Below are positions 529-54,745 of a stretch of DNA of 60,049 nt, piece after piece. Origin of the DNA: Gammaproteobacteria bacterium (GTDB lineage: Bacteria; Pseudomonadota; Gammaproteobacteria; GCA-001735895); the NCBI GenBank assembly GCA_024225395.1, contig JAAEMR010000208.1, forward strand, positions 1 to 60,049. Direction: 5' to 3'. A program made the translations under genes and the position numbers. Each line of letters opens with the position of its first letter. The first letter of the stretch is position 1. The notes beneath the pieces were generated by a model. The model saw only the letters and a list, made by a program, of their open reading frames with translations, made no database searches and had not been told where the DNA came from.

Positions 529-2424
529 TTATAAAAAGGGATGAATTGTCTTCAACAGGTTTTCAATGATAATGGGTTTTTTTACTACAGCATTCATTCC
601 GGCCTTAAGGTAACGCTCTCTTTCTTCGCTCATGACACTGGCACTTACTCCGATAATTGGAATTTGACTGTTATTATCATTACCTCTGCGAATAATCTCG
701 GTAGCAGCAATACCATCCATTACAGGCATTCGTATATCCATTAAAATCAGATCGAATTTGTGAGTCTGGATTTTTTCAATAGCGGCCTTTCCATTTATTG
801 CCTCGGTCACATTCTGCCCTGCCTGTTTTAGTAATGAACTGGCAACAAAACGATTAATTTTGTCATCATCGACCAGTAAGATATTTAATTGTCGGTTTAA
901 CTGAAATTCTTTTCCTGGGAATTCTTCAAGAGCACTTTCTGCGGGTACTGATACGGTTACCTCAAATGTAAAACAACTGCCTTTGTTTTGCTCTGAAGTC
1001 ACCTGCAGCGTACCCTGCATAATTTCAGTCAATTGCTTGCAAATGGCCAGGCCAAGACCAACACCCTTGTTGCTGATGCCATCTGACTCAAGCTGTTGAA
1101 ATGCTTCAAAAACTTGCTTTAGCTTATCCTTTTCTATTCCTATTCCCGTATCCCTCACAGTAAGTTGTAAACTAAACTGATTGTCAGAGACAGCTTGTCC
1201 GCCTATCACTAGCTTTACTTCCCCATCTGCTGTGTATTTAGCTGCATTACTGACCAGATTAACCGCTATTTGCAGCAACCGGTTTGCATCTGCGCTTAAA
1301 TGTTCGGGCAGGTCGTTACTTATCTCTGTAATAAAACTGGCATTACTGTTTTCAAAAAATGTTTCAACGATATTTTGAATATCGGTTATCCAGTTAAATG
1401 TGTTAAATGGCTCTATATCCAGCAACAGGTTACCGGATTCAATTTTTGATAGATCCAGTAGGTCATCAATAAGTAGCAACAGATTTTTACTTGAACTGTC
1501 GAGAATATCGATGTAGTGCTCCTGCTCCTCACTGAGAACGGTATTCCGTAACAGTTGGGTCGTGCCAAATAAGCCATTCATCGGTGTGCGGATTTCGTGA
1601 CTCATGCTGGCAAGGAACAGGCTTTTTGTATTATTGGCATCTTCAGCCTGTAGCTTGGCTAATTCGAGTTCATGGGTTCGGTCTATGACCCTTTTCTCAA
1701 GAGATTGCTGGTAGTCATTCAACTGAGAATTATAATTCTGAATTTGTTGCAGCATATCATTAAAACCATCAACTAAAGTGCCCAGTTCATCATTGCTCAG
1801 GCGTTCAGCCCTGCTGGAGAAATCTCGGTGTCTTGCGACCATTTCCATGGTGTTTAGCAGTCGTTGTACGGGTACAGATACAACACGCTGTAGTCCACCG
1901 GAAATCAGTAAGGCTAATAACATCGACAGTGCAAATATAACCAGCCCGACTGCAATTTTTCGGATAAGGCTGGTATACAGCTGACTCAAATCACCTGTAA
2001 TAAGTAGATCTGCAACATGATTGCTATCAAACATGATGGGCTCCGTCACTTCGATTCTACCGAGTAAAGACTCTAGTGCAGTTTGCCAGAAACTGACTAT
2101 ATCGGTGTCATCTAATGCGCTTGACTTATACTCGATGAAGAGGTGATCATCACGTTGCCTGATACCAGCCCAGACGACATCTTCCTGAGAAGAAAGACTG
2201 TTGATAACTTCTGTAGCGGCCTGTTTATCATTAAAAGCTATAGCAGCACTACTATTGACGGCAAGTACAGTAGCCAGAGATTGAAGCCTTGACAGAGTAT
2301 TGTCTCGTGCAGAGATAATATCTAACGACATGAGCAGCACGATGCAGGGCAGCAATACGGATGATGTTGTCAACAACATTATCGCTTCCAGCTTTTGCTT
2401 GATGCTGGCATTTTTCAGGATCAT
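529..2424 (-). CDS. Hybrid sensor histidine kinase (periplasmic CHASE8-like sensor, HAMP, HisKA, HATPase, receiver)
   Basis: A 631-residue inner-membrane kinase. Transmembrane helices at about residues 14-35 and 157-177 flank a periplasmic sensor resembling CHASE8. Then come HAMP (about 178-232), a coiled linker, HisKA with the H-box around His276 (SHEIRTPMN), an ATPase with the N-box near Asn393, DTGIGI at 425-430 and a GxGLGLA lid. The C-terminal receiver has acidic residues near 519-521, phospho-acceptor Asp563 and Lys near 615. The start overlaps the stop of the upstream YfiR-like gene by ATGA, indicating translational coupling. It is the last gene of a receptor/YfiR/kinase operon. No HPt domain is present, so a separate phosphotransfer partner is expected. 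Confidence 0.92.
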
Positions 2425-2990
2425 GGTGTTTCCCTGTTTCCGATAACGGTTGCCATGCTGAGCAGGCGTGAACTAATTTTCAGACCTGAATGGCGCGCTA
2501 CATCCAGGTTGATCAGGAAACGTGTACGATTATTTTTTCGGAATATTTCAATGATGCCACCATCAGTGGCAAAACCGGAAAGTTCACTGACTGTTAAAAC
2601 TGGCTGAATGGGTAGTGATTTAAGTATGCCTTTGAAGCGTGGTTGTTCGGAAGTTGCCACCAGTAGTACATGGCAGTTATTTTCTGAAAGTGGTCTATTT
2701 TCCAGTGACTGGATGGAGACAGGATGACCCTTGATTAATTTACCGTTAAGCTGTTTAAGTTCATCCACCAATTTATCTTTGCCAGCCGTGCATAGAATAA
2801 GCGCTGCATCGGGTGTATCCCAGGTATACACTGGCCAGCTAGTAAGTTTGGCAAAGTTGAAGATGAAGGCAGCCTTGAAAAGGTCACTATCATTTTGTTC
2901 AGCAGCGATCACAGCCTGCGGGACACAGGCAAGCAGGCATAAATGCATGAGCAGGATCAGCCTGGATAATACGGGTTTCAATGTCTTCAC
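2421..2990 (-). CDS. YfiR-like periplasmic protein (DUF4154)
   Basis: A 189-residue exported protein. A GTG start at 2990 gives a basic, leucine-rich signal peptide ending near Ala-Val-Ile-Ala-Ala at residue 30. The body matches the YfiR/DUF4154 pattern: an N-terminal [14 protein letters not shown] segment, a middle strand ending in a short loop, and the C-terminal [20 protein letters not shown] stretch. YfiR of Pseudomonas is a periplasmic repressor of the membrane diguanylate cyclase YfiN. Here the adjoining inner-membrane partner is a hybrid histidine kinase, so by analogy the protein may gate that kinase. It lies 60 bases downstream of a TonB receptor gene and overlaps the kinase gene by four bases. 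Confidence 0.88.
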
Positions 2991-3050
2991 TGCTTATGAT
3001 TACTGACAAGACTTGAAACGGTTTCCATTAAAATCATCTGAATATACGAT

Positions 3051-5123
3051 TTAAAAATCATACCGCATCTCGATATAAAAGTTTCGTTCTGGCAGCGGAA
3101 GATCTTCTTCAATCGAACCCGTACTGTATTCTCTGGCATCAACATCAAACAGATTTCGTACAGATGCCGCAAACTCCCAGTTTTGCTCTGTATAACGTAG
3201 GGTGGTATCGGTTATGAAATGGTCATCTAGCGGGGGGCGACTGTCTGTTTCTGGGCGAGGACGTTCATTCAGCCAGTTGGACTGAATATTCCAGTTCCAT
3301 TTTGGCAAAAAGCCCCAGTCAGCACGAATATAAGCTTCCTGGTCAGATAGCTGATAATTGCGAAAACCATCGTTCTGCTGATCACGGATAGAGTAATTTC
3401 CAGAAAAGAACAGGTTATTCCTGGCCTGCCAGCGGGCTTCAAGTTCAACACCTTTAATAGTGTGGTTCCCCGTATTGTTGAATTGCTTCTTACTGAGACC
3501 AGCTATATCAATAGCCTGAATAATGTCGCTTTGCTCGAAATTGAATAGATTCAAGGATAGCTGTAAGTTTCTGCTGGCGGTATAAGAAAAGGACAGATCT
3601 ATGGTAAGAGATCGTTCTGCATCAAGCTGATCATTGGGCAGGGCTCTGGAAGTTTCGGCAAACAATTCCTGGTAAGAAGGCGCTCGAAATGCCTGACCGA
3701 CCATCAGTTTGGTGGTTAACGTCTGGCTGCTTTGCCAGACCAGTGCCAATCGTGGATTGTAGGTAGGACCAAAATCGGAATAATCATCATAACGAAAACC
3801 GGCAGTCAGTTCCCAGTCATCAGAAATACTCCAGATGTCCTCTAAAAACAGGTGCGTTATTTTTCGTGTTTTCTCGGGAGCAAAAGCATAAGCTGTGTCC
3901 GAAATATCAACCAGTGGCCCACCTGCCGGAAGCATAACTCCATCCGGTCCCAGACCACTGTTAACCCACTGCTCTACATAATACAAATCTTCCCAGCTGT
4001 AACCTGCACCAACAACAATGGCATGTTTGTTAATTCCACTAAAAAGACCACTGGTTTCAATTGCGACCCGACGTTCAGCAGATCGCATCTGATTGAGAAT
4101 ACCGTCAGGGTAGGTTCCCGTATTATCAGTGTAACCTGAAGGTTTTTCCTGAAAGCCCGGGCCTGAAGAATATTTCAGGTTTTGATAACCAAGTTTTGCG
4201 TTAAGCATCCAGTCTGGATGGAAAGAGGTATTGTTATACAGCAAATCAATGTTATAACGGCTATCGCTGGCATGAGTAAGGGGATCAAATACGCTGGCAC
4301 CTGTCATGCCGGTTTGAAGATCGTTGTGGCTCGTATAATCACCCTGAAACCGCCAGTTACCTTTCGCTAACGAAAATCGAATATCTTCACCGTGCCAGCC
4401 GTAGTTCACTGTATCCGGTGCAAGCGAGGCAGTGCTATTGAAAGTTTGATCCCGTTTTGTCTGTCCATCGCTGACTATAAACGGTTCGTATCCGGCGGTA
4501 TCATGGAGTTCTGCGGTGAAGCCGATATCGAAGCCGTTGATCGTCGTACCATGTTGTATCCAGCCAGTTTTAGTCGCAAAACTACCTACCCTTATTGCGA
4601 CCTCGGAATCCTCGATTTTACCGGCGGTTTTAGTAATGATATTCAACACACCTGCAAAGGCATCGGCTCCAAATATGGCTGAGCCCGGGCCACGAATAAT
4701 TTCTATACGGTCAATTATACTAACCGGTAAGCCTTTCCAGAAAATGCCGAAAACCCACATCAGATCTTTTATCGGAGTACCATTGACCATGAGTAACGTT
4801 TGCGTGGCTTTACTGCCTCGAAAGTGAATCAGCGGTCTGTTTCCAAAAGGGTCGATTCTAATCTGGACACCTGGTACTCCTTCCAGTATGTCGGCCAGAT
4901 TAGTAGCACCGGTGGCTTTAATGTCCTGTTGAGTAATAACCGTGACCACCGCTGGTACTTTGCTTAGTTTTTGTTTTGTGGCTGTAGCAATAGTAGTTTC
5001 GAGGTTGATTAGCTCTTCAAAGCTTAACGACAGAAAGTGTTCTAACCTGTCGTTGGCAAAGCTGGCAGTAGAGAAAACCAGGCTTAACACCCAAAATATG
5101 ATACCTGATTTATGATCCTTCAT
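3051..5123 (-). CDS. TonB-dependent outer-membrane receptor
   Basis: A 690-residue protein with a signal peptide (hydrophobic residues about 8-23, ending Ser-Phe-Ala). A short lead with Phe-Glu-Glu-Leu-Ile-Asn-Leu-Glu precedes the plug domain (about 45-165), which shows VPAVVTVITQQDI, a VPGVQIRIDP strand, IEIIRGPGSAIFGADAFAG and VLNIITK. The rest is a beta-barrel ending in aromatic residues (MRYDF), as needed for outer-membrane insertion. The ligand cannot be read from sequence. The lead and the linkage to a YfiR-like protein and a sensor kinase match a recurring class of receptor thought to work with signalling rather than plain siderophore uptake; that role is inference. No Fur-like site was seen upstream. 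Confidence 0.9.
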   Translation of the reverse strand: MKDHKSGIIFWVLSLVFSTASFANDRLEHFLSLSFEELINLETTIATATKQKLSKVPAVVTVITQQDIKATGATNLADILEGVPGVQIRIDPFGNRPLIHFRGSKATQTLLMVNGTPIKDLMWVFGIFWKGLPVSIIDRIEIIRGPGSAIFGADAFAGVLNIITKTAGKIEDSEVAIRVGSFATKTGWIQHGTTINGFDIGFTAELHDTAGYEPFIVSDGQTKRDQTFNSTASLAPDTVNYGWHGEDIRFSLAKGNWRFQGDYTSHNDLQTGMTGASVFDPLTHASDSRYNIDLLYNNTSFHPDWMLNAKLGYQNLKYSSGPGFQEKPSGYTDNTGTYPDGILNQMRSAERRVAIETSGLFSGINKHAIVVGAGYSWEDLYYVEQWVNSGLGPDGVMLPAGGPLVDISDTAYAFAPEKTRKITHLFLEDIWSISDDWELTAGFRYDDYSDFGPTYNPRLALVWQSSQTLTTKLMVGQAFRAPSYQELFAETSRALPNDQLDAERSLTIDLSFSYTASRNLQLSLNLFNFEQSDIIQAIDIAGLSKKQFNNTGNHTIKGVELEARWQARNNLFFSGNYSIRDQQNDGFRNYQLSDQEAYIRADWGFLPKWNWNIQSNWLNERPRPETDSRPPLDDHFITDTTLRYTEQNWEFAASVRNLFDVDAREYSTGSIEEDLPLPERNFYIEMRYDF

Positions 5124-10239: not shown

Positions 10240-10935
10240 ATGGTTTTTAAAAGTCACTCGTTGGCATTATTAGCATTAGTACTGGCATCACTTCTGATTA
10301 ATGCTGTTGCAGAGCCGGTTACTATCAAATTAACCTTCGAACCTGATTTAAAGAATGGTCAAAGAATCTATGAAATCTGTGCATCCTGCCATTTACCGGA
10401 GGGCTGGGGTAATAATGACGGTGCTTACCCTCAAATAGCGGGTCAACACCAGAATGTCCTGATACAGCAATTGCTGGATATAAGAAGTGGCCAGAGAGAA
10501 AATCCCACTATGTATCCATTTGTTCAGGAACGAACCATCGGAGGGTATCAATCCCTGGCTGATGTTGTTGCTTATATTTCAACCTTACCCATGCATCCGC
10601 AACATAGTGCAGGACCCTGGAGAGATTATTCAGATGAATATAAAGCAGGAGAAGTTCTGTACAAACAGAAATGTGCGAGTTGTCATGGAAACCGGGGAGA
10701 AGGCAATAATGATACGTCAACACCAAAGCTATATGGTCAGCATTATCCTTACATTAAAAGACAAATTAATCTGGTTAAATCTGGCCAGAGAATAGTTAAT
10801 TCTTTAATGCAGGCTGTCGTTCAGAAACTTACTGATGAGCAGTTGAAACAGGTAATAAACTACATTTCGTACCTTCCAGTCCCCGAAGAAGAACGTGCGC
10901 CCTCGCTAAACTGGCGAAATACCGACTTTTATTAA
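10240..10935 (+). CDS. fccA: Diheme cytochrome c, cytochrome subunit of flavocytochrome c sulfide dehydrogenase
   Basis: A 231-residue periplasmic cytochrome. A signal peptide ends near Ala22-Val-Ala-Glu. Two haem sites are present, CASCH at 47-51 and CASCH at 145-149, each in a c4-type half with a Pro-Gln-Ile-Ala-Gly-Gln or Leu-Tyr-Gly-Gln-His loop. AAGG lies eight bases before the ATG. The FAD-binding sulfide dehydrogenase subunit begins 11 bases after the stop, so the pair forms the FccAB unit: FccB oxidises sulfide and passes electrons to these haems. A paralogue, also diheme, lies at 30712-31503. Confidence 0.87.
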   Translation: MVFKSHSLALLALVLASLLINAVAEPVTIKLTFEPDLKNGQRIYEICASCHLPEGWGNNDGAYPQIAGQHQNVLIQQLLDIRSGQRENPTMYPFVQERTIGGYQSLADVVAYISTLPMHPQHSAGPWRDYSDEYKAGEVLYKQKCASCHGNRGEGNNDTSTPKLYGQHYPYIKRQINLVKSGQRIVNSLMQAVVQKLTDEQLKQVINYISYLPVPEEERAPSLNWRNTDFY

Positions 10936-10945
10936 GGAAAATCCG

Positions 10946-12286
10946 ATGACTAAAAAAATAAATAGACGTACATTTCTTCAGTCCTCGGCAGCTCTGGCTA
11001 CAGCAACCATTAGCGGCCAGGGTTATGCGCAATCTACCAGTGGTGAAAGCCCGGTTATTGGAGGAAAGTTTTCGTCACCTGCTCCAATTCCTGCAAAAAA
11101 AGGTCCCCGAGTCGTTATTGTTGGTGGAGGCTGGTCCGGTTTGACCATGGCCAAGTACTTAAAGAAAACAAATCCGAAATTTGATGTGGTTTTACTGGAT
11201 AAAAATCAACAATTTGTTTCCTGTCCCATCAGTAACGTGTGGATGGCAGACCAGGTTAATCTTGACTTCCTGACCCATAGTTATGTTGAGGCGGCTCAAA
11301 ATAATGATTATCTATTTCTGAATGCCACGGCTTTGGAACTAGATAGAACAAGCAAAATTCTGGTCACAACTTTAGGAAGTATTAAATATGACTATCTGGT
11401 TGTTGCACCTGGAATTGACTATGACTATAACCGAATAGGTGTTGACAACCCTGAAGATGAATATGCCTTACGCATGAACTATCCGGCTGGATTCAGCAGT
11501 GCTTCTGAAATTATGGCAATCAAACATAAGCTGCATAATTTTAAAGGGGGCACTCTGGTACTCACTGTCCCCAGTGGAAACTATCGTTGTATTGCGGCAC
11601 CTTATGAGCGTGCCTGTATGGCAGCAGCCATCTTTAAAAAACATAATATTCGTGGGAAAATTCTGTTGCTGGACATGAATTCAGATATTCGTATCAAAGC
11701 CGAAGGTTTCAAAAAAGCCTTTGCGGAATATTATGGCAATATTATTCAATATGAGCCTAGTGCTGAAATTAATGGAGTTAGGGTAGTCGATAAAGAAATT
11801 GAAACGGATTTTGATAGCTACCAGTTTGATGATGCTGTCATCTACCCGCCGGTAAGAGCTTCATCGATCATAGAGGAATTCGGGTTGAGTGATGAAAGTA
11901 GCTTGCAGAAAGAAGCGGCTATTGACCCTTTCAAATATCACCTGGTTGATGATGAGTCGGTGTATGTTACCGGAGATTCTCGCTCGCAACCTTTTTCAAA
12001 AAGTGGTAACACTGCTCATTCTGAAGCGCGTTACGTCGCTGAAGTCATCAGTGCGCATGCTGATGGAAAACAAATTGAATGGCGTAGCCCACAAACCATG
12101 TGTTTCTCCGGGGTTAGAATAGACCCGCTTGAATCCATGAGTATCATTGCATTTTATAAATATGATGAAGCAGAAAAAAGTTTTGCTTTTGATCGTTCTC
12201 ACTTAATGGACAAATGGAATGAACGTGCCGGGCAGGCGGGTCTTGCCTGGGCTGAAGGCATGTATCGGGATATGTTTTATAGTTAA
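10946..12286 (+). CDS. fccB: Flavocytochrome c sulfide dehydrogenase, FAD subunit
   Basis: A 446-residue periplasmic flavoprotein exported by the Tat system: twin-arginine motif NRRTFLQSS near residues 6-14 and cleavage near Ala28. The FAD-binding VVIVGGGWSG lies at 56-65. Three cysteines match those of the Allochromatium enzyme by spacing: Cys93 (VSCPISN, covalent flavin attachment) and Cys215 with Cys386 (the redox disulfide at the active site). The known reaction is oxidation of sulfide to zero-valent sulfur or polysulfide, with electrons going to the diheme subunit encoded just upstream. SoxF-type proteins are close relatives and cannot be excluded. No sox genes are in view. Confidence 0.9.
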   Translation: MTKKINRRTFLQSSAALATATISGQGYAQSTSGESPVIGGKFSSPAPIPAKKGPRVVIVGGGWSGLTMAKYLKKTNPKFDVVLLDKNQQFVSCPISNVWMADQVNLDFLTHSYVEAAQNNDYLFLNATALELDRTSKILVTTLGSIKYDYLVVAPGIDYDYNRIGVDNPEDEYALRMNYPAGFSSASEIMAIKHKLHNFKGGTLVLTVPSGNYRCIAAPYERACMAAAIFKKHNIRGKILLLDMNSDIRIKAEGFKKAFAEYYGNIIQYEPSAEINGVRVVDKEIETDFDSYQFDDAVIYPPVRASSIIEEFGLSDESSLQKEAAIDPFKYHLVDDESVYVTGDSRSQPFSKSGNTAHSEARYVAEVISAHADGKQIEWRSPQTMCFSGVRIDPLESMSIIAFYKYDEAEKSFAFDRSHLMDKWNERAGQAGLAWAEGMYRDMFYS

Positions 12287-12595: not shown

Positions 12596-15500
12596 TTACT
12601 TTTCAGTATCTTGACTGTCAGGTTTAGATGAAGAAGATGGATCTTCTTTTTTCACAGCAGCTTTCTTTTTAGTCGCTTTTTTCCTGACACTTTTCTTTTT
12701 TGTAACAGCCTTCTTTTTGACACTGGCCTTCTTTTTAACCGTTGTCTTTGGTTTAGCTTCAACGTCTTTAGTTTCAGGCTTAGCTTCAATGACCTTGGGC
12801 TGCTCAGATACTGCAGCAGGGGAGGTTTGCTGCTTCTCTTCTTCAGCAGGACTGCTTACATCAAAATCAACTTGGGTCATATCGATTGATTCAGCAGCTA
12901 CATTGTTGACTGTAATTTCATCTTCGGAAGTGCTAGAGCCATTAGCCATTCTGTCATCGTAATCCTGACAGGCATTCGGGTCTTTGCTACCAGCGCAGAC
13001 AAAGATGCGCTCACCCAGAGAAATACAACCCAGAGGAATAACTAGCAGAGTCAGTATGGTTGAAACAAAAACACCGAATAATAATGAAATTGCCATACCC
13101 TGGAAGGTTGGGTCTGTGAGTATAACCATCGAACCTAAAACCAGAGCCAGGGCGGTGATCATAATAGGCCGGGTACGAGCTTTAGTTGCGTTGATAACCG
13201 CATCACGTAAAGGAAACCCCTTACTGACCAGTGCAATGGTCGCATCGATGAGCAATATCGAGTTTCGAACAATTATACCGGCTAATGCAATCCAGCCAAT
13301 CATTGATGTCGCTGTAAATTCAGCGCCTAATAACCAGTGACCGGGAAGGATACCTAACATGGTTAAAGGAATAGGGGCCATTATGACAGCGGGTATTGAG
13401 AAGTTGCCAAACTGCCATACTACCAGCATGTAGATAGCTACCAGCGCAACACCAAAGGCCATGCCCATATCACGGAATGTTTCATAGGTTACTGTCCATT
13501 CTCCAGTCCATTCAAAGCCTGAAATATCATCATGTTCAGGGGCATTCATCATGGTGCCTGACATAATGATGCCATCAGGAGTCGGGTGATTCTTAAGCAT
13601 TTCGTCAACGTCATTCATGGCATAGATTGGAGCAGGTAATTCACCTACAGAGTCACCCACGACAAATTCAATCGGTCTTAGATCTTTGTGAAAGATCATT
13701 GGGTCACGAAAATCTTTCACGAACTCACCCACTTCACCTAAAGGTACGGTTCGACCGTCCTGAGTCATGACAGGCATGTCTGCAAGCTTGTCTAATTGTG
13801 AACGAGCTGCCAGAGGAATCTGTAACAGGATATAGGTGGGTTCATACACCAGTTTTTGTTTGACATCACCTACCTTGAACATACCCATGGACATGGCCAG
13901 GTGCTGGTTGATCGTTTCAACAGAAACACCCTGGTTTGCGGCTTTATTAAGGTCAACTTTAAAACGCCATATTTCCTGCTCTTCACGCATGAAATTATCG
14001 ACATCATCAATTAAATCAGATTTATGAAATAGCCCTGTCAACATGGTAGCCACTTCAGAACGAGTTTTAGCATCAGGACCATGTACCTCAGCAACAACGG
14101 TTTGTAGCACGGGAGGACCCGGTGGCATTTCAACAATAGTAATTACGGAATTAGAAGCGGCGCCGATAGGTTTCAGCAACTGCCTTACTTCTTGAGCGAC
14201 ATCATGGCTTGTTTTGCTGCGCTCAGATTTAGGTGTTAACTGTACCTGTACTTCAGACTGCCAGGGGAACATTCTTAGATAGTAGTGTCTGACAAGGCCG
14301 TTAAAATCAAAAGGTTTAGCCGTTCCGACGTAAGTTTGAATGGCCGTCACTTCAGGAATAGTTCGTAAAATATCGACGACTTCTGTGGTTGTATTTATGG
14401 TGTCTGGCAAAGCAGTGCCATCAGGCATATCTATAACCATGGCAAATTCATCTTTGTTGTCAAACGGTAACATTTTCACCTTCACCATGTAGTTGGTTAA
14501 AGGCGTGAACATTGCAACTACCAGAAAGAAAGCAGCAAACAGGCCGATAAGAAAACCCATTCCAACAACTCTTTTATCGATCAATGCTCCAAGCACTTTG
14601 TGATAGAAATTTCCTAACCAATGATCTATTTTTTCATCCCGTGCTTCCATTTTTCTAAGAACTTTCATGGGCGGGATGATACGCATGGCAATCCATGGAG
14701 CGAATACAACAGCCGCAATCAGGGAAAAAATCATGGCCACGGAACCCAGTGCCGGAATAGGTTCCATATAGGGGCCCATCATGCCTCGAACAAAACCCAT
14801 CGGGAGCAGAGCTGCGATAACGGTATAGGTCGCGAGTACAGTCGGATTACCTACTTCTCTTACGGCATCGACCGCGATTTCAGTGGTTGTTTCTCCTTCA
14901 TGAAGCCATCGGGCATAAATATTTTCAACGATGACGATAGCATTATCGACCAGAAATCCAATGGAAAAGATGAGCGCGAAGAGACTTACCCGGTCAATGG
15001 TGTAGCCCATTAACATAGCCATGAATACTGTGATAACCAGAACAACTGGAATTGTTAATAAAACAACAATAGCGGGTCTTAGGCCGAGTGAAATCCACAC
15101 CAGGAATGTTACAGCTGCGGTCGCTACGGTTAATTTAAATAATAATGAGTTAACTTTGTCGTTTGCCGTTTCACCATAATTTCGGGTGATCTCAATATTT
15201 ACATTATCGGGAATCAAGTGGCCTTTCAAATGTTCCACTTTATCTAGAATCGCGTTCACTACGGAAACACCATTAGCACCATGCTGTTTGGCAATTGCAA
15301 TAGTAACAGCCTGTGCTCCTTCAACAGCTTCGCCTGAATGGGCTGGGCCCGTGTAATAGGTTACCTGGTGCCGGGCTTCTTCAGGTCCAGATATAACTTC
15401 GGCAACATCTCTTAAATAAACGGGTTTGCCTTCATTGTTACCGACCACAAGACGTTCAAAATCCGCTGCAGATTGAAGAAATGCACCTGTTTTAACCCAG

Positions 15501-16225
15501 TGAAATTTCCCTTCCTGCTCTATAGCCCCAACGGTTTGTTCTGTGTTAAAGCTTTTAATGGTCTTGGCAATATGACCCATGGTGATGCCATAACCTTTAA
15601 GTTGTTCAGGTAGGACATTTATTCGAACCTGTTCAGAACGGCCACCAGAAACAAATGCATTACCGGTATGGGGAACCTGCTTCATATTATGCATCAGGCT
15701 GACCGCAAGGGTACGCAGGTTGGCATCATCCATTTCGTGTGACCATAGAGTCAGGGTCAGTACAGGTACGTCATCAACTTCTTTTGGTTTAATTAATGGA
15801 GCCTCAACACCTGGTGGCATAAGATCCATATTTGCCTGTACCTTGTTATGAGTCAGTACAATGGCACGCTCAATTTGCTCGCCGACCTCAAATTCCAGAG
15901 TGATAATTCCCATGCCTTCATCACTCACGGAGTAAACGTGTTTGATACCGTGAATTTCACTAACAAGACGCTCGAGAGGGCTGACCACCAGCCTTGATAC
16001 TTCCTCTGAAGAAGCTCCTTTCATTTGCAGCATGATATCGATCATGGGTACAGATATTTGTGGGTCTTCCTGCCGAGGTGTTGCGTACAGGCCGTAGAAA
16101 CCTACTAACATCATGGCTATAAAAAGTAGCGGAGACAGTGGAGAATGAATAAATGAATCGGCAAGTCGGCCTGCAAATCCAAGTTCTTCTTTAGTTAGAA
16201 CGTCTGTTTTGTTAGCAACTGTCAT
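12596..16225 (-). CDS. RND efflux pump, inner-membrane transporter, with lysine-rich C-terminal tail
   Basis: A 1209-residue AcrB-superfamily proton antiporter. The first transmembrane helix is near residues 31-49. Two large periplasmic loops and two blocks of membrane helices follow, with the conserved central segment SIGFLVDNAIVIVENIYARW (helix 4 acidic region) and the repeat-two counterpart GIIVRNSILLIDATIALV. The usual length is about 1030-1050; the extra length is a cytoplasmic tail. That tail is acidic and Pro/Glu-rich first, then carries about 30 residues of Lys-Lys-Lys-Ala/Ser/Val repeats (12647-12736) and a Ser/Asp end. Such tails occur in histone-H1-like bacterial proteins, not typically in RND pumps. 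The adaptor gene lies 160 bases upstream. No outer-membrane channel gene is nearby. The substrate is unknown. Confidence 0.92.
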   Translation of the reverse strand: MTVANKTDVLTKEELGFAGRLADSFIHSPLSPLLFIAMMLVGFYGLYATPRQEDPQISVPMIDIMLQMKGASSEEVSRLVVSPLERLVSEIHGIKHVYSVSDEGMGIITLEFEVGEQIERAIVLTHNKVQANMDLMPPGVEAPLIKPKEVDDVPVLTLTLWSHEMDDANLRTLAVSLMHNMKQVPHTGNAFVSGGRSEQVRINVLPEQLKGYGITMGHIAKTIKSFNTEQTVGAIEQEGKFHWVKTGAFLQSAADFERLVVGNNEGKPVYLRDVAEVISGPEEARHQVTYYTGPAHSGEAVEGAQAVTIAIAKQHGANGVSVVNAILDKVEHLKGHLIPDNVNIEITRNYGETANDKVNSLLFKLTVATAAVTFLVWISLGLRPAIVVLLTIPVVLVITVFMAMLMGYTIDRVSLFALIFSIGFLVDNAIVIVENIYARWLHEGETTTEIAVDAVREVGNPTVLATYTVIAALLPMGFVRGMMGPYMEPIPALGSVAMIFSLIAAVVFAPWIAMRIIPPMKVLRKMEARDEKIDHWLGNFYHKVLGALIDKRVVGMGFLIGLFAAFFLVVAMFTPLTNYMVKVKMLPFDNKDEFAMVIDMPDGTALPDTINTTTEVVDILRTIPEVTAIQTYVGTAKPFDFNGLVRHYYLRMFPWQSEVQVQLTPKSERSKTSHDVAQEVRQLLKPIGAASNSVITIVEMPPGPPVLQTVVAEVHGPDAKTRSEVATMLTGLFHKSDLIDDVDNFMREEQEIWRFKVDLNKAANQGVSVETINQHLAMSMGMFKVGDVKQKLVYEPTYILLQIPLAARSQLDKLADMPVMTQDGRTVPLGEVGEFVKDFRDPMIFHKDLRPIEFVVGDSVGELPAPIYAMNDVDEMLKNHPTPDGIIMSGTMMNAPEHDDISGFEWTGEWTVTYETFRDMGMAFGVALVAIYMLVVWQFGNFSIPAVIMAPIPLTMLGILPGHWLLGAEFTATSMIGWIALAGIIVRNSILLIDATIALVSKGFPLRDAVINATKARTRPIMITALALVLGSMVILTDPTFQGMAISLLFGVFVSTILTLLVIPLGCISLGERIFVCAGSKDPNACQDYDDRMANGSSTSEDEITVNNVAAESIDMTQVDFDVSSPAEEEKQQTSPAAVSEQPKVIEAKPETKDVEAKPKTTVKKKASVKKKAVTKKKSVRKKATKKKAAVKKEDPSSSSKPDSQDTEK

Positions 16226-16258
16226 ATCAGCTGACCCCTAAAAATAGTTTTTATCTAT

Positions 16259-16277
16259 GATGATTATTATCATCATG
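16259..16277. promoter_or_regulatory. Fur-box-like operator before the RND gene
   Basis: GATGATTATTATCATCATG matches 15 of 19 positions of the Fur consensus read on one strand and contains an ATGATGAT/ATCATCAT inverted repeat (16257-16276). It lies 34 bases upstream of the RND start, between the adaptor and pump genes, suggesting separate, possibly iron-responsive control of the pump. Confidence 0.45.
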
Positions 16278-16385
16278 ATTTGTTGTAATAAATAAACAGT
16301 ATCGAGATAGACAGCCCAAATAAATTATTAAGCGGTTTAGCTCGATATTGTAGAGAAGATTAATAAGTATTTAGCCAGAGACCAA

Positions 16386-17570
16386 CTATTGTGCAGCAGA
16401 CGTATAGGGACCGGAGCGAGTTGATGCTAAAGGTTGTTTTAATATTTTATCGCCTATTGAAACACCGGAAAGAATACTGATCATGCCGTTACCAGATGGG
16501 GTACCCAGTCTGAGAGAGCGCATCTTTAAACTTGTCTTATCGGCGGAAACTGCAAAAACGGAAGGTAAGCTTCCACGCCAGCTGATTGCAGATTGAGGGA
16601 TAACCGCAAGAGGTTTTTTAGCATTACCGTTGGTAGGAACCAAAATTTCTGCATACATTCCCGCTCTGGCACCGGTACCCGAAGGTAATTCAAACTTGAC
16701 CGTTGTGGTATGACCACCCTGACTTGCCATTGGGAAAATTCTGGAAACTTTGGCAGGAATTAATGTCGTGCCACGATCGAGTCGGGCTGAAACAACTGAA
16801 TTTTCATTTAAATTTGAAATCAGGCGAGCAGGAACTTCAACCTGAATTTGCATGATACTGGTATCAGCAAAAACCACTAAAGGCATACCCGGTTGAACAA
16901 TATCACCTACTTCGACCATCTTTTTAACGATGATGCCTTTGAAAGGCGCGATACTTTGAAGATTTTCGAGGTTAGCATCTAACTCGGCGATGCCCGCTCT
17001 GGCCTGCTCAATCTGGTCTTTAGCGGTTTGAATCATGATGTTTTGTCCAAACAAACTGGAATATCGTTCATAGTCGGGGTCTCCCTCTCCGCTAAATTCG
17101 CGCAGGGGGTCAGAAAACATGGTGAACATGGATGGAACACCACCTAACAATGAATTACCCATGGCATTGGGGCTTTCTTTTTCACGAGTGTATTGTACTT
17201 GTGCATTAGAAAGGCCGGCCTGTGCGCTACGTAATCCCGCTACAGCGGCTCTTCTTTTTTCCAGTAAGGTTGCTCTATCCAGTCCTACCAGCGTGCTGCC
17301 CATTTCAAAGCTATCACCTTCTTCACCGGCTATATATTCCACTTCACCTGGCATTTGAGCAATCATGTTAACCATTTTAATGGGTAAAACAGTACCTCCC
17401 AGAACAGCGGAGTTGGAACTCGTGTTAGCACTAACGGTATAAATATGATTATCGGGAACCAGATTGGCTATGTGGGATTCAACCGTTTCGGTATCGGCTG
17501 AAAAGGTAGTAATTGAAAATAAGGTGGTAACTAAGCCAACAAGCGAGCTTATGGTCAGTTTTTTGAACAT
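16386..17570 (-). CDS. RND efflux periplasmic adaptor (membrane fusion protein)
   Basis: A 394-residue adaptor from the ATG at 17570, which has GGAG seven bases upstream; a frame extension to 17597 adds nine residues without a better site. An N-terminal signal-like helix (FKKLTISSLVGLVTTLFS) is followed by a biotinyl-lipoyl half (MPGEVEYIAGEEGDSFEMG), an alpha-helical hairpin, the second lipoyl half (APFKGIIVKKMVEVGDIVQP) and beta-barrel plus membrane-proximal domains. It would link the inner-membrane pump encoded next to an outer-membrane channel. The divergent gene at 17736 shares the 165-base promoter region. The hairpin contains an unusual Gly/Pro/Met-rich insertion around residues 135-165. 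Confidence 0.9.
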   Translation of the reverse strand: MFKKLTISSLVGLVTTLFSITTFSADTETVESHIANLVPDNHIYTVSANTSSNSAVLGGTVLPIKMVNMIAQMPGEVEYIAGEEGDSFEMGSTLVGLDRATLLEKRRAAVAGLRSAQAGLSNAQVQYTREKESPNAMGNSLLGGVPSMFTMFSDPLREFSGEGDPDYERYSSLFGQNIMIQTAKDQIEQARAGIAELDANLENLQSIAPFKGIIVKKMVEVGDIVQPGMPLVVFADTSIMQIQVEVPARLISNLNENSVVSARLDRGTTLIPAKVSRIFPMASQGGHTTTVKFELPSGTGARAGMYAEILVPTNGNAKKPLAVIPQSAISWRGSLPSVFAVSADKTSLKMRSLRLGTPSGNGMISILSGVSIGDKILKQPLASTRSGPYTSAAQ

Positions 17571-17735
17571 AAAACAACTCCAAAAAGACAGATGCAATTA
17601 AATGCCATCTGAATATTATGTAATGTAACGGAAAAAGGGGGATGCCCTCAGATTAATCAATGCTATTGTATTAGATTAAGGCGTAGATTATGTTAACACA
17701 TATCAAGAAAATGTGAACTTTGTAACTTTTATTTT

Positions 17736-18410
17736 GTGAAAAAAATCCTCAATATTTCTTCGACTTATCCACGTTTAATATTAGTTTTTCTAGTGTTAGT
17801 AACTGTTTTCTGTGTGACGAAGCTGCCTTCCTTGAAGGTAGACATTTCAGCTCAAAGTATGATGGTTAAAACGGATCCTCTGTGGAAGACTTATCAAAAA
17901 ACGCTTAAAACTTTTGGTTCTGATAATGTCGTGATCTTATTTTTTCAGGACAAAAAGTTATTCACTGCCGAAAAACTATCAAAAATTAAAGCAACGATAA
18001 AGTCTATTGAAAAGCTGGACTTCGTTACCGGTAGTAGCAGTCTTTTCAATACGCCAAATGTCAGGGAAGTTGATGATTATATTATTACCCGGCCATTTCT
18101 GGATGAAATTCCAGAAATGGCCGGTGAGCTGGAATCGATTTTAGCTGAAGCGATCAGCAATCCTCTGGTTGCAAAAAACCTGGTTTCTGTTGATGCTAAA
18201 ACTCTTGCGGTCAATATTTACATGGATGGGGCGATACACTATCCGGGGCGTGATGCGGAAATTACTCTGGCAATTGAGAGGGAGCTGGAACCCCTGTCAG
18301 ATCATCTGGATGTGGTTTTTCAAATGGGCTCGTCCTATGTCAGGGATGCGATATCAAAACAGATTCAACACGATCAAAAGCTAATCATTCCCGCTGCATT
18401 AGCAATTTAA
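17736..18410 (+). pseudogene. MMPL/RND-family exporter fusion, fragment 1 of 4 (N-terminal helix and first periplasmic domain)
   Basis: A GTG at 17736 opens the first frame of a gene that runs to 20914 but is broken by three frameshifts. This piece holds the first transmembrane helix (about 14-28) and the first periplasmic loop of an MMPL/RND exporter. The frame closes at TAA 18408-18410, exactly where the second transmembrane helix should continue. The sequence resumes in another frame from 18407 (Leu-Ile-Leu-Val-Leu-Gly-Phe). No good ribosome-binding site is visible. The intact protein would have about 1050 residues. The break could be true decay or a one-base assembly error. Confidence 0.75.
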
Positions 18411-18733
18411 TACTGGTTCTTGGTTTTAGTCTAAAGTGTATAAACTGTTCCATTGTGCCGCTATCGACAGCAGTGATGAGTATTATCATTACTCTGTCAG
18501 TGATGGCTTACCTGGGTATACCGGTCAATGTTCTAACTTCAATAGTCCCCGCTTTATTGATTATAATAGGTTCGACAGAAGATGTGCATTTACTGGCGGA
18601 ATATCATAGTGGAATTGAAAAAGGCTTATCGAGAGCCGAATCCATCGACGGGCTACCCAGGAATCAATCGGTAGCGATTCTATGTAACGTTTATTACTAC
18701 TTTTATCGGTTTTCTGTCGATCATAGTCAATGA
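18407..18733 (+). pseudogene. MMPL/RND-family exporter fusion, fragment 2 of 4 (helices 2-4)
   Basis: This frame continues the exporter: hydrophobic helices (ILVLGFSLKC, AVMSIIITLSVMAYLGIPV, IVPALLIIIG) and then GSTEDVHLLAEYHSGIEKG, the counterpart of the conserved Asp-containing segment of MMPL helix 4. It loses homology after Val-Ala-Ile near 18682 and stops at 18733. The true continuation (Val-Thr-Phe-Ile-Thr-Thr-Phe-Ile-Gly-Phe) lies in the original frame from about 18693, so the second shift restores the starting frame. Confidence 0.7.
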
Positions 18734-20252
18734 ACTTGAGATTTTGACTCAGTTTGGCTGGATAGTGTCGATGGGGCTACTGATTAACTTTCTGATTACC
18801 GTGTTGTTTATCCCTGCTTATCTACAGTTATTCGGTGGTACTCAAGCTAAATTATCATCCACTAAAAATTATTATCAAAAGTTTGCCAGGGGTATTTTTA
18901 CGGTTGTTATCCGCTTTAAAAGAACCACGCTTTTATTGTTATTTTTTACGGCTGGTTTTTTTCTCTGGGGATCCCAGTTTTTACAGGTAAACAATAATAC
19001 GCTCGGGTATTTTGCCAAAGATTCCGAAATAAATCAGCGGGCAGAGTTAATTCACAAACATTTGTCTGGCATGCAGACGTTCTCAATAATCCTCGATTCT
19101 GCTATTGAAGGTACCTTTCTTAAGGTGAAATACCTGGAGGATGTCAGGCAGTTACAACAATTTATCGAGCAGTGTAATGTGTTCGATAAATCCTTTTCCT
19201 TCACCGATTTTATCATGCTGACCAATAAAATTATGGAAGGTACTGATGATTTATCAATGCCGGATGAAGATGATCTTATTGAAGCTTATATGAGTTTTGT
19301 TCAGTTCAGTGCGGTTAAAAATTATGTGTCCGGTGATTTTAGCAGTACACGAATACTGGTTAGGCATAACCTTTCATCATCACGACAGTTGGACTCTGAA
19401 TTACTGGCAATCAGGCAATTTATTGATCAGCAGTTAAAAACTAATTTGACGGTTCATTTTACCGGGGAATCTGTTTTAACGAATCGTGCAACTGATAGCA
19501 TGGCGATAGGCCAGATTCAATCATTGTTGCTGATGGTGATCGTTATATTTTTACTGGTATCCCTGTTATTCATTGATATTCGAGCGGGTTTGCTGGCGAT
19601 TGTTCCCAATATTTTTCCAGTCATTATCCTGTTTGGTGTGATGGGCTATTTCAATATTCCTCTGGATACAGGAACCACCATGGTGGCGGTGATAGCACTG
19701 GGTATCTGTGTTGATGACACGATTCATTTTTTAAGTCGCAACCATCACTTTACCCGGGGTACCCAGGACGTCGAAAAAGCCCTGTTGAAAACCGTTGAGC
19801 ATGAAGCGACTCCGATTATTACGACTTCAGCCGGGTTGGCTCTTGGCTTTTACACTTTAACTTTGTCCAGCTTTCTTCCAGTGGTTTACTTTGGTGCTCT
19901 GAGCGCACTGGTTATGTTACTGGCCATGTTTTCTACTTTTGTACTGACACCAGTACTTTTATCTTATACCCGTTTGATAACCGTCTGGGACGTGTTATCT
20001 CTGAACTTGAAATCGAATGTACTCAAGAAAAGTGTGTTCTTTAAAGGACTACGTAACTTTGAAATCAAAAAAGCAATTTTAACTGGTAATATTTTGCAGT
20101 TTAGTGAAGGTGATATCCTGGTGGAACAGGGGCAGGATGGGAATGATATGTACGTGATCCTGGAGGGGCTTGCCGTGATAAGTCGTAAAGAAAAAGACGG
20201 ATCGGTGTATACCATTGGTGAAATGGGTCGGGAGAACTGTTTGGTGAAATAG
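18690..20252 (+). pseudogene. MMPL/RND-family exporter fusion, fragment 3 of 4 (second membrane half and start of cyclic-nucleotide-binding domain)
   Basis: The longest piece, open at the window level from 18744 by ATG but homologous from about 18690. It has helix ends, a second periplasmic loop, and the second helix block including VAVIALGICVDDTIHFLSRN, the repeat-two equivalent of the helix-4 motif. After the last helix the chain enters a cytoplasmic cNMP-binding domain (FSEGDILVEQGQDGNDMYVI, then LEGLAVISRKEKDGSVYTIG). The frame shifts near 20226-20230 and ends at 20252, within that domain. Confidence 0.75.
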
Positions 20253-20914
20253 CTTTATTAACCAACGACCAGCGAACGGCCAGGGTAACCGCTGGTGCCT
20301 TTGTAAAAGTGCTGGTCATTCGCTGGGATAGCATTAGTCAGTTAGGTCGTTATCACCCCAGAATTTCAACAAAACTTTTTCGTAACCTGTCATCGGTGAC
20401 TGGTAAACGGCTGGCTAAACAGTCGGTCAACGATAAAAATATGCGTGATGAATTAACCGGAGCCGTTAATCGATATTTTTTATGTGAACAATTATTACTG
20501 GAGATAGACAGAGCTAAAAGATACGAGGAAGTTTTTTCATTGATTATTATGGATATAGATTTTTTAAATTCTGATCTACAGCAACAACAAAATATTGATG
20601 AAGTTAGTATCAAAGCTATCACTCAGGGAATTTCTGACCAAACTCGTAGCGTTGATATATTCGCCAGATGGGATGAAAGTCGGTTTGTTATCCTGATGCC
20701 CAGAACATCCTCGGAATTAGCCCTGGGTATTACTGAACGTATGAAATCTGGTATCGAAGATATCGACTATCCTGAACTGGGTCGAATTCACATTAGTGCT
20801 GTTGTCACGCAGAGTAAGGGTGAAGAAAATGTTGAAGTTCTACTGAATAAAATCGAAGTACAACTGGATAAGAAGATGTTAAATGAAAAAAGTCTCTACA
20901 TTACCGTGGCTTAG
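20226..20914 (+). pseudogene. MMPL/RND-family exporter fusion, fragment 4 of 4 (end of cNMP domain and degenerate GGDEF domain)
   Basis: In the third frame the cNMP domain resumes with the phosphate-binding cassette signature GELFGEIALLTNDQRTARV and its C-terminal helix. A GGDEF-like domain follows: DELTGAVNRYF, then LIIMDIDFLN, then Arg-Trp-Asp-Glu-Ser-Arg-Phe in place of Arg-x-Gly-Gly-Asp-Glu-Phe. The loss of both glycines predicts no cyclase activity; it could only be a sensor or a relic. The first ATG in this frame is at 20309. It stops at 20912-20914, 107 bases before the convergent zinc-finger gene. Confidence 0.72.
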
Positions 20915-20931
20915 ATTATAGAGAATTCATT

Positions 20932-20967
20932 AGTATGATGAGTAAAAATTCTTTTACTCATCATACT
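20932..20967. terminator. Perfect 16-bp hairpin between convergent genes
   Basis: AGTATGATGAGTAAAA (20932-20947) pairs perfectly with 20952-20967 around a 4-base loop. No T run follows on either strand, so it may be a Rho-independent-like barrier or an RNA 3'-end stabiliser. Confidence 0.5.
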
Positions 20968-50634: not shown

Positions 50635-51015
50635 ATGATATCGGGTATTGGTGTTGATATAGCCGAGATTGCTCGCTTTAAAAAAATGGTAGAGCGCTAC
50701 GGTGATCGCATTGCGAAACGAATTTTAACGACCCAGGAGTTTCAGCAATACAAAAAAAGAAAAAACAGCCTGAGTTTTCTAGCATTACGCTTTGCTGCTA
50801 AAGAAGCCGCCAGTAAAGCATTAGGAACGGGTATTGCCAGAGGTATTGGATTTAAGTGTATAGAAGTTATTAATACGCAAGAAGGTAAACCGGAACTTGT
50901 GTTTCACGGGGTAGCGAAAGAATTTATTAAGAAGAAAAATATCAGCAGTACATTTTTATCATTATCGGATGAAAAACATTATGCAGTTGCAATGGTTGTA
51001 GTTGAAATAAATTAA
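50635..51015 (+). CDS. acpS: Holo-[acyl-carrier-protein] synthase
   Basis: A 126-residue phosphopantetheinyl transferase that activates acyl carrier protein. GIGVDIAEIARF at the N-terminus carries the metal-binding Asp8, and FAAKEAASKALGTG carries the conserved Glu and Lys. It ends the lepA-acpS run. Its TAA overlaps the stop codon of the convergent kinase gene, so no terminator separates the two. Confidence 0.96.
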   Translation: MISGIGVDIAEIARFKKMVERYGDRIAKRILTTQEFQQYKKRKNSLSFLALRFAAKEAASKALGTGIARGIGFKCIEVINTQEGKPELVFHGVAKEFIKKKNISSTFLSLSDEKHYAVAMVVVEIN

Positions 51016-53735
51016 ATCGCTTCATCCGTCTGATTAAAAAGTTCAATAGTTTCGTCAATCTTTTTCAAATTATTTCTAATCAGCTTTAATGTCCTTAACA
51101 ACTCGGTAGAATTTCCCAGTTTTAAAGTTTCATAATGAGTCAGAAGCTTTTTTAATTGAGGCAGTCCTATGTAGCAGGTAATGCCTTGTAACTTGTGCAT
51201 TATATGGGCTATTTGACTCTTATCTTTCATTTCGATAGCTTTATCCAGATCCTCAATAAAATCTGGGATTTCAAGTTGTAGCATCGCAAAAGTAGCTTTA
51301 ACCAGTTTTTCATTATTAGCTGACAGCACCAGCGTTAACTCGAAATCAATGGATGGTTCATGATCGACTGTAGTCACTTTTTGCTGCACTGGAGTTTGCA
51401 ATGGAGCCTTATGAAGCAATACATCTTTCAGGCATCTTTCATCTATAGGTTTACTGATATACGCATTAAACCCGAGATTGATCAGACGTTCTTTTTCATT
51501 TTCCAGCACATTTGCAGTTATGGCTACAATGGGAATGTTTAAATCCGGTTGCTGCTTTCGTATCATTAACATGAGCTCAACACCATCCACTTCGGGCATT
51601 TGTATATCCAGTAAAATCAAATCAAAATCCATCGCGTTGAATAATTTCATGGCCTGTTTGGCATCACTGGCCTGATGCGGGTTGTGCCCCCATAAGCGGG
51701 TTAATTCACAGGCCAGAGCGAGGTTGATTGAATTGTCATCTACAATAAGGATTTCCTTCGATTGGGGCGGTGTTAATTCGTCTGTTAAGGATTTAGTCTC
51801 ATTGTTTTTTTCTTCGTTTGATAGCAAATTTAGCAAATTATTAGAACTATTAATAACGGAGATAAATTGATAATCTGGATAATCAGTCATATCTATAATA
51901 CTTGAGTCATAATGCATAATAATGACTTTGCAGTGATCCAGGATCTGTTGACTAATAAATTTATTCGGATGTAACAAACAATGCCGTAAATCGATAACGA
52001 TCAGGCCAATATAATTGAGGTTTTGTATTAACTGTTTGTGTAAAGAATCCGCTTTCGTTGCCTCGTTGATTAACTGTATTTCAGTATTAAATTGAGCCCT
52101 GTTAAATAATGCCTGAATTTCTTTCAGGGCGAGTTGAGCTGATGCGTAAATCATTACCGTTTTAGCTGGAGATGAAACTTCCTGCTGTTGCAGAAATGAT
52201 GGATCTGGATTTAGCTGAGAGGATGGTTTGAAGGGCATTACAACAGAAAATAAAGTGCCTGAGTCGATTTCACTTTCTAATGTAATATCGCCTCCCATTA
52301 ATTTGGCGAGATTTTTTGAAATAACAAGGCCCAGACCCGTTCCCGAAAATCTTCTATTAGAATCTGATTCAATTTGCCTAAACGCCTTGAAAAGGCTTTT
52401 TTGATTATCTTCAGAGATACCAATCCCACTGTCCTGGATATTGAACTTAATCATGATTTGATCTTTGCTTTCATCCTCTACAAATACAGTGATAGACACA
52501 AACCCTTTGTCAGTGAATTTTATTGCGTTACCGATAATGTTGATTAAAATCTGTTTCAGACGTAGAGGGTCGCCAATTAGATAACGCGGTGTATCGCTGT
52601 ATATAATGAGGTACAGGTCAATGTTTTTTTCAAGGGTATTTGCGTACAGGCTGTCTCGGGTACTTTCTACCAGTTCAATAAAATTAAAAGATTCTTCCAG
52701 AAGTTCTATATTTCCCGATTCTATTTTCGAGAAATCAAGAATTTCATTGACGATGCAGCTTAAGTCGATCGTGGACTGGGTAATTATGTCGACGTACCGA
52801 GTCTGATCCTGGCTCAATCCGGTGTTAGTCAGCAAGTTTATAAAACCCTTGATTCCATTGATCGGGGTTCGTATTTCATGACTCATGTTGGCAAGAAACT
52901 GAGTTTTAACCTGATCCGCCATTTGTGCATTGTCACGAGCTATAGCAAGCTCTCTATTATTATATTCCAGATTTGTAATTGCATTCATTAGTTCCAGAGT
53001 TGCTGTTTTGATCTTCTGATCAAGCTGCATTTGATTGGCCAGCAGAGCCTGTGACATGCTATTAAATCCTTTTTGTACATCCCCGATTTCATTAGTTTCT
53101 ATATCATTTATTATTTCTCCGAGTTGCCCTGTTTCTACCTGTTTTAGATGATGCAGAAGAGTATAAATTGGACGCATTAAACGTTGACTGATGATAAAAG
53201 TTAGAATAATAGCGATGAATAACATAAAGATGAAAAAGACAGCTCCATCCTTAATGATTTGTTTTTTCTGTAATAGCAGTTGATCTTTTGAAATATACAT
53301 ATGCACCCATCCCAGGTTTCTCAGTGGAAGTTCCTGCTGATTTAAGCCTGGCTGGAATATGTCTTCATAATTAATATTTTGAGTTTGCACCGGTTGCCTG
53401 TAATAAGAGTATTCAGAGCTCAGTTCAGATTTATATCGATTATTTTTGACCTGGGCTATTATTTTTCCCTGTAGATCATAAATGGCTAGAAAAATAATAT
53501 TGTTGGTATCGATGGACTGGTCCAGCAGGAACTGAATTTGATCAAAATTTCCGGACAGAAGATTGTATTCTGAAGCCCCTGAAATTTGCTGAGCAATTAT
53601 CTCACCTTTACTTTTTAGTAATTTTTCGGCTTGATCCAGGCTACTGCTAATATGAATATAGGTGAACAATACATCGATCAGTAACACCGGTATCATTGCT
53701 ATTATAAGTATCTGATATTTTAACCGTAATTTCAT
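51012..53735 (-). CDS. barA: BarA/GacS-like hybrid histidine kinase
   Basis: A 907-residue inner-membrane kinase. Helices near 9-28 and 165-183 flank a periplasmic domain; a HAMP region (184-240), HisKA with His286 ([13 protein letters not shown]), an ATPase (DSGIGI 435-440), a degenerate receiver-like stretch (about 525-635), a receiver with phospho-acceptor Asp710 (LILLDIQMPEVDG) and an HPt domain with His847 (IMHKLQGITCYIG) follow. The HPt region and domain order match E. coli BarA. BarA/GacS controls carbon-storage (Csr/Rsm) small RNAs through UvrY/GacA. Nearby cysM and rlmD repeat the gene neighbourhood known for gacS or barA. Two envelope genes precede it in the same direction. Confidence 0.9.
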   Translation of the reverse strand: MKLRLKYQILIIAMIPVLLIDVLFTYIHISSSLDQAEKLLKSKGEIIAQQISGASEYNLLSGNFDQIQFLLDQSIDTNNIIFLAIYDLQGKIIAQVKNNRYKSELSSEYSYYRQPVQTQNINYEDIFQPGLNQQELPLRNLGWVHMYISKDQLLLQKKQIIKDGAVFFIFMLFIAIILTFIISQRLMRPIYTLLHHLKQVETGQLGEIINDIETNEIGDVQKGFNSMSQALLANQMQLDQKIKTATLELMNAITNLEYNNRELAIARDNAQMADQVKTQFLANMSHEIRTPINGIKGFINLLTNTGLSQDQTRYVDIITQSTIDLSCIVNEILDFSKIESGNIELLEESFNFIELVESTRDSLYANTLEKNIDLYLIIYSDTPRYLIGDPLRLKQILINIIGNAIKFTDKGFVSITVFVEDESKDQIMIKFNIQDSGIGISEDNQKSLFKAFRQIESDSNRRFSGTGLGLVISKNLAKLMGGDITLESEIDSGTLFSVVMPFKPSSQLNPDPSFLQQQEVSSPAKTVMIYASAQLALKEIQALFNRAQFNTEIQLINEATKADSLHKQLIQNLNYIGLIVIDLRHCLLHPNKFISQQILDHCKVIIMHYDSSIIDMTDYPDYQFISVINSSNNLLNLLSNEEKNNETKSLTDELTPPQSKEILIVDDNSINLALACELTRLWGHNPHQASDAKQAMKLFNAMDFDLILLDIQMPEVDGVELMLMIRKQQPDLNIPIVAITANVLENEKERLINLGFNAYISKPIDERCLKDVLLHKAPLQTPVQQKVTTVDHEPSIDFELTLVLSANNEKLVKATFAMLQLEIPDFIEDLDKAIEMKDKSQIAHIMHKLQGITCYIGLPQLKKLLTHYETLKLGNSTELLRTLKLIRNNLKKIDETIELFNQTDEAI

Positions 53736-53805
53736 TTTTTGATTTCTTCAAAAATGCAATACGGGTAATAAGTAAAAAATAATAGTTGTGTATGGAACTT
53801 TACTA

Positions 53806-54741: not shown

Positions 54742-54745
54742 ACCC

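Follow-up and report, generated by a model that had tools for sequence, protein, structure and literature searches.

An MMPL/RND exporter gene with cyclic-nucleotide-binding and GGDEF-like C-terminal domains, carrying three frame changes in a gammaproteobacterial genome

The analysed window is a 60,049-nt stretch of a Gammaproteobacteria bacterium genome, identical to contig C208 of that genome over the stretches compared. Positions 17736-20914 of its forward strand hold one MMPL/RND exporter gene that continues into a cyclic-nucleotide-binding (cNMP) domain and then a GGDEF-like domain, and that is interrupted by three net single-base frame changes. Frame 1 stays open between a GTG at 17736 and 18407 (stop at 18408-18410) and again between 18693 and 20249 (stop at 20250-20252); a second frame spans 18404-18733 and, later, 20228-20914. 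Fragment 1 (17736-18401) encodes the N-terminus, TM1, the first periplasmic domain and the start of TM2, and begins with GTG where relatives have ATG or ATG-GTN. Break 1, placed at 18402-18409 by frame analysis and alignment to relatives, leads into fragment 2 (18404-18733; homologous to relatives until about 18676), which covers the TM2-TM5 region, is sterol-sensing/Patched-like and contains the acidic motif GSTEDVH. Break 2 (18677-18695) leads into fragment 3 (18693-20252), with TM6-TM12, the second periplasmic domain, the acidic motif VDDTIH and the first part of the cNMP domain (PF00027; 20097-20344). Break 3 (20217-20233) falls inside that domain, just 5′ of its phosphate-binding cassette (FGEIALL...QRTARV), and fragment 4 (20228-20914; natural stop at 20912-20914) supplies the remainder of the domain and the GGDEF-like domain (about 20441-20866). 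Each break is a net change of one base, as an earlier note on this DNA had proposed, and frame 1 does reopen at 18693, where the note had the second break restoring it. Directly 3′ of the gene, two perfectly matching 16-bp inverted arms around a 4-nt loop (20932-20967, forward strand) form a possible terminator that has no strong T-run.

When the fragments were searched separately against Pfam, fragments 1-3 matched MMPL or the related sterol-sensing and Patched families, fragment 1 weakly, fragment 2 as Sterol-sensing (23.6 bits, cut-off 22.3) and fragment 3 as MMPL (PF03176; 61.5 bits, cut-off 20.5). The cNMP_binding match is split at break 3 into a left part of 28.5 bits and a right part of 24 bits; the two cover profile positions 3-50 and 48-85 and meet at positions 48-50, fragment 3 carrying the left and fragment 4 the right half of one domain. 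Fragment 4 further matches GGDEF (54.7 bits, cut-off 23.8). Taken fragment by fragment, the matches reproduce the domain order that the earlier note had read from the letters: exporter, cNMP-binding, GGDEF-like.

A search with fragment 3 found uninterrupted open reading frames of 1049-1083 aa, with this same order, in the same genus and its sister genus, and all four fragments align in order to these single frames, which shows that their succession is not due to chance. The closest intact homologue (G004:C221, locus L040) has 1083 aa and shares 63, 73, 77 and 61% identity with fragments 1-4; its MMPL score is 116 bits (cut-off 20.5) and its cNMP_binding score 59.2 bits, and the cNMP domain scores 54-70 bits in five GGDEF-fused members. 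The window's own genome encodes an intact paralogue (G000:C186) with 1065 aa and 65% identity over fragment 3. Overall, a member is present in eight of the eight genomes of the genus and in both genomes of the sister genus, several of which have two or three, with some members truncated by contig ends; no member was found in the third genus of the family at the search threshold used. The earlier note had taken a lack of intact homologues in this order as the sign of a chance fusion of dead genes. The four separate open reading frames in two frames would fit such a juxtaposition, but single intact frames in the same order occur in the related genomes, in the window's own genome and, with 1090 aa, in a distant one, which rules the fusion out and makes chance juxtaposition scarcely conceivable. 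On the evidence of these homologues the odd three-domain architecture is genuine, although the window copy is damaged.

Farther afield, a search of 369 genomes from the class gave a relative (E ≤ 1e-70) in 22; almost all of these proteins measure about 915-940 aa, and the inspected examples of that length stop after the cNMP domain. These unnamed two-domain MMPL-cNMP proteins, from many Pseudomonadota families and with an annotation that goes no further than MMPL family transporter, are homologous to the present gene through TM12 and the cNMP domain and differ from it in having no GGDEF-like tail. The 1090-aa member with a GGDEF-like tail (genome G286) comes from one other family; by its sequence, the three-domain order occurs in this distant gammaproteobacterial family too. 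At the phylum level there is a strong match in 19 of 398 genomes, mostly of two-domain length, and a Thalassospira plasmid carries an MMPL-cNMP relative annotated only as "MMPL family transporter". As judged from these searches, MMPL-cNMP is a widespread architecture in Pseudomonadota, to which the rarer MMPL-cNMP-GGDEF proteins add a further domain. Separately, many of the MMPL relatives from the family's third genus (L025, L026, L031-L035, L037 and L038) have a single in-frame stop codon, mostly TGA, within the alignment; it probably marks where a shorter protein naturally ends.

A tree built on the exporter and cNMP core groups the window copy with the intact G004:C221 (hereafter the orthologue). 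Their sister group is a clade with 100% support to which the remaining close copies from the genus belong, among them the window genome's own intact paralogue. In a codon comparison with the orthologue, all four fragments have a per-site nonsynonymous difference (pN) in the range 0.15-0.26, at saturated synonymous sites (pS of 0.69-0.87). Measured to four outgroup members, the distances of the window copy deviate by no more than about 3% from those of the orthologue, and there is no in-frame nonsense codon in the aligned parts of the window copy. The low pN against saturated pS in all fragments, together with the outgroup distances, implies that selection kept the reading frame until very recently. 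A long-standing pseudogene is ruled out by this strong constraint in all four fragments; the breaks are either recent or an assembly defect, and the window copy is most likely a very recent pseudogene with three frameshifts. The same observations (amino-acid change no faster than in the orthologue, no nonsense codon, purifying selection throughout) would also be expected if the gene were intact in the organism and the breaks were errors of sequencing or assembly; in favour of errors, too, is the state of the genome, a draft of 265 contigs with 4.7% contamination. We consider such errors the unlikelier origin, as three independent ones in a single 3.2-kb gene are improbable if randomly placed. 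No other gene is visibly split in the 60-kb window, of which 90% is coding; this speaks against uniform sequencing error and is still compatible with a local assembly fault. Further, programmed frameshifting could yield one full product from the interrupted gene, since the second frame returns to the first at break 2, if all the shifts happen; it would require three separate shifts and no intact relative has any, so that we regard it as very improbable.

The exporter core was modelled with AlphaFold2 on an intact member (L060). The model (mean pLDDT of 68; unreliable in the cNMP part of the tail) has an RND core of 12 long TM helices, one periplasmic domain following TM1 and another following TM7; helix 12 ends near residue 736, and the tail comes after it. 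AlphaFold models of the tail are shallow and, for the cNMP part, poor (pLDDT of about 33). In RND proteins the N-terminus is cytoplasmic, and with 12 TM helices the chain returns to that side of the membrane, so the tail is expected to be cytoplasmic. The motifs GSTEDVH and VDDTIH are conserved in close homologues, and we take their acidic residues, at TM4 and TM10, to be the proton relay. In a Foldseek search the predicted core best matched MmpL4 and MmpL5, and also MmpL3, NPC1-type proteins and HpnN. The mycobacterial MmpL3, MmpL4 and MmpL5 are thus its nearest folds, although at about 12-15% identity, and the cytosolic tails of these proteins are not known to sense nucleotides. The HpnN/HAE3 group (TIGR00921, TIGR03480) shares the 12-TM MMPL/RND core, the paired periplasmic domains and the acidic pairs around TM4 and TM10; HpnN stops after TM12 and is not known to have a cNMP or GGDEF tail. 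The nearest NCBIfam model is HAE3 (TIGR00921), with scores of 142.8 bits for fragment 3 and 184-225 bits for intact members, all below its curated cut-off of 351.9; scores below the curated cut-offs also set the present exporter family apart from this group. Characterised HAE3 members transport hopanoids or monoterpenes, and AmeD, an HAE3 member besides HpnN, has 787 aa (PMC6394551). By this analogy, a lipid or another hydrophobe is the best guess for the substrate class.

The cNMP phosphate-binding cassette retains its Gly-Glu and Arg in the window copy and in nearly all relatives, the exceptions being G007:C504, G328b and G357. The first of these (L052, 4418-7645, forward strand) is an intact three-domain member whose cassette is degenerate (FGALSGL...QCHADI) and which retains an RKPD motif and the distal Arg. 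In Foldseek the tail model matches GGDEF domains. In the GGDEF-like domain the Trp-Asp-Glu-Ser-Arg-Phe that the earlier note had placed at the active site is present, and DESRF (20672-20686) aligns without gaps to the GGEEF of solved cyclases. A GG(D/E)EF signature occurs in none of the 15 GGDEF-like tails. The variants include DESRF in the window copy, GESRF in the orthologue, GGNRF in G286 and, in others, EKCSF, DKCSF, GDFRF and PDSSY; across these sequences the degeneracy is a family trait. Decay of the window copy is thereby rejected as the source of its odd motif, the intact relatives being degenerate as well, and a diguanylate cyclase is rejected for want of the signature in any member.

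The c-di-GMP inhibitory site (I-site) follows a different pattern. The motif RSVD (RxxD; 20645-20656) lies five residues before DESRF and aligns ungapped on the RKSD I-site of DgcR, where the I-site mutant structure 6zxb differs from DgcR exactly; a third Arg (20738-20740) follows 28 residues after the RSVD Asp. The triad of RxxD and Arg at +28 is complete in seven sequences that represent all the deep lineages, including the window copy and the orthologue. Within this group, which was delimited after the residues had been inspected, the triad makes up three of only nine invariant columns in 137, at pairwise identities of 18-64%. In one clade, to which the window genome's own paralogue belongs, at least one residue of the triad is lost, and the tree supports I-site loss in a single clade. 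A known counterpart is PelD, whose degenerate GGDEF domain binds c-di-GMP through RxxD and a distal Arg (PMC7112168). The window copy likewise has lost the catalytic signature and kept RxxD and the distal Arg; PelD differs in pairing its GGDEF domain with GAF and in belonging to a polysaccharide synthase. The PelD_GGDEF profile (PF16963) matches the orthologue weakly, at 21.2 bits, below the Pfam cut-off of 27.

These features can be joined into a mechanism. A 12-TM MMPL/RND exporter related to the HAE3 (hopanoid/hydrophobe) group carries, at its cytoplasmic C-terminus, a CRP-type cNMP domain that would sense cAMP or cGMP, followed by a GGDEF-fold domain that has lost its cyclase chemistry and that, in the window lineage, has a complete I-site for putative c-di-GMP binding as in PelD. 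The two messengers would jointly control how active this proton-driven exporter of lipids or other hydrophobes is. Gating of the exporter by a nucleotide second messenger had been suggested in the earlier note. The genome encodes three class III nucleotide cyclases and has about 50 GGDEF matches, which makes both messengers plausible. For the composite reading, in which the cNMP domain of an HAE3-like exporter reads cAMP or cGMP, the I-site GGDEF domain most likely binds c-di-GMP and the window copy is a recent pseudogene, our confidence is evenly divided. We propose only tentatively the further step that the exporter is under direct post-translational control by the two messengers, cAMP/cGMP and c-di-GMP, with a paralogue clade that has no c-di-GMP input. 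In that clade, where the GGDEF-like domain is kept and the I-site partly or wholly lost, the domain may have another role.

Alternatively, the GGDEF-like domain could be a structural remnant, serving in dimerisation or as a spacer without ligand, so that only the cNMP domain senses. This is a possibility of some weight, as the GGDEF signature is lost everywhere, the I-site is degraded in one whole clade, two-domain MMPL-cNMP proteins manage without the domain, and the tail is the least conserved part of the protein (34-61% identity to the window copy among close genus members, compared with 58-77% for fragment 3). Against it stands the full I-site triad, which belongs to the few residues that are invariant across deeply separated members. 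If the tail binds nucleotides, an RND exporter would be switched directly by second messengers, and envelope lipid or hydrophobe export would, if this is true, be tied to the signals that govern surface life. Moreover, the widespread two-domain relatives offer a route to tests in cultured bacteria, and the clade without the I-site is a natural negative control.

The earlier note knew of no description of such an architecture, and a search of the open full-text literature likewise found no description of an MMPL/RND protein fused to cNMP or GGDEF domains, an absence that within that literature is not proof. The relevant passages of a 2023 review of transporter modulation mention MFS fusions to cyclic nucleotide-binding domains and contain no RND example, and the terms GGDEF and c-di-GMP are absent from its text (PMC10710835). 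As described in the same passages, CBS-fused transporters bound by c-di-AMP resemble the present protein in joining a transporter to a C-terminal nucleotide-sensor domain, and belong to another transporter superfamily (PMC10710835). The cAMP-sensing EAL phosphodiesterase Bd1971 of Bdellovibrio combines a cNMP domain with a c-di-GMP-type domain in one protein; unlike the present one, it is an active enzyme, with EAL rather than GGDEF, and has no transporter (PMC6717892).

The genomic neighbourhood was compared across 13 related loci. Few neighbours are shared, and no orthologue of the window's neighbours was found beside the relatives; the neighbourhood is not conserved and gives no clue to the substrate. 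Five of the 13 loci (L041, L042, L043, L045 and L049) have a gene for a WYL/WCX-domain transcriptional regulator upstream, in the same orientation. An operon shared with the divergently oriented RND permease and adaptor genes at 12596-17597 is not supported, as these are on the opposite strand and were not found beside relatives.

Several other features of the window may be recorded. The AcrB-type permease (12596-16225, reverse strand) has a C-terminal extension with a Lys/Ala-rich, histone H1-like end (KKKASVKKKAVTKKKSVRKKATKKKAAVKK), which is unusual for an RND pump. A gene pair at 10240-12286 (forward strand), encoding a cytochrome c and then a flavocytochrome c sulfide dehydrogenase flavoprotein, suggests sulfide oxidation. 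Finally, two clusters on the reverse strand (529-5123 and 51012-56764) each combine a hybrid histidine kinase with a TonB-type outer-membrane receptor and a small periplasmic protein, YfiR-like in one cluster and ABC_sub_bind in the other, which suggests a repeated sensory module.
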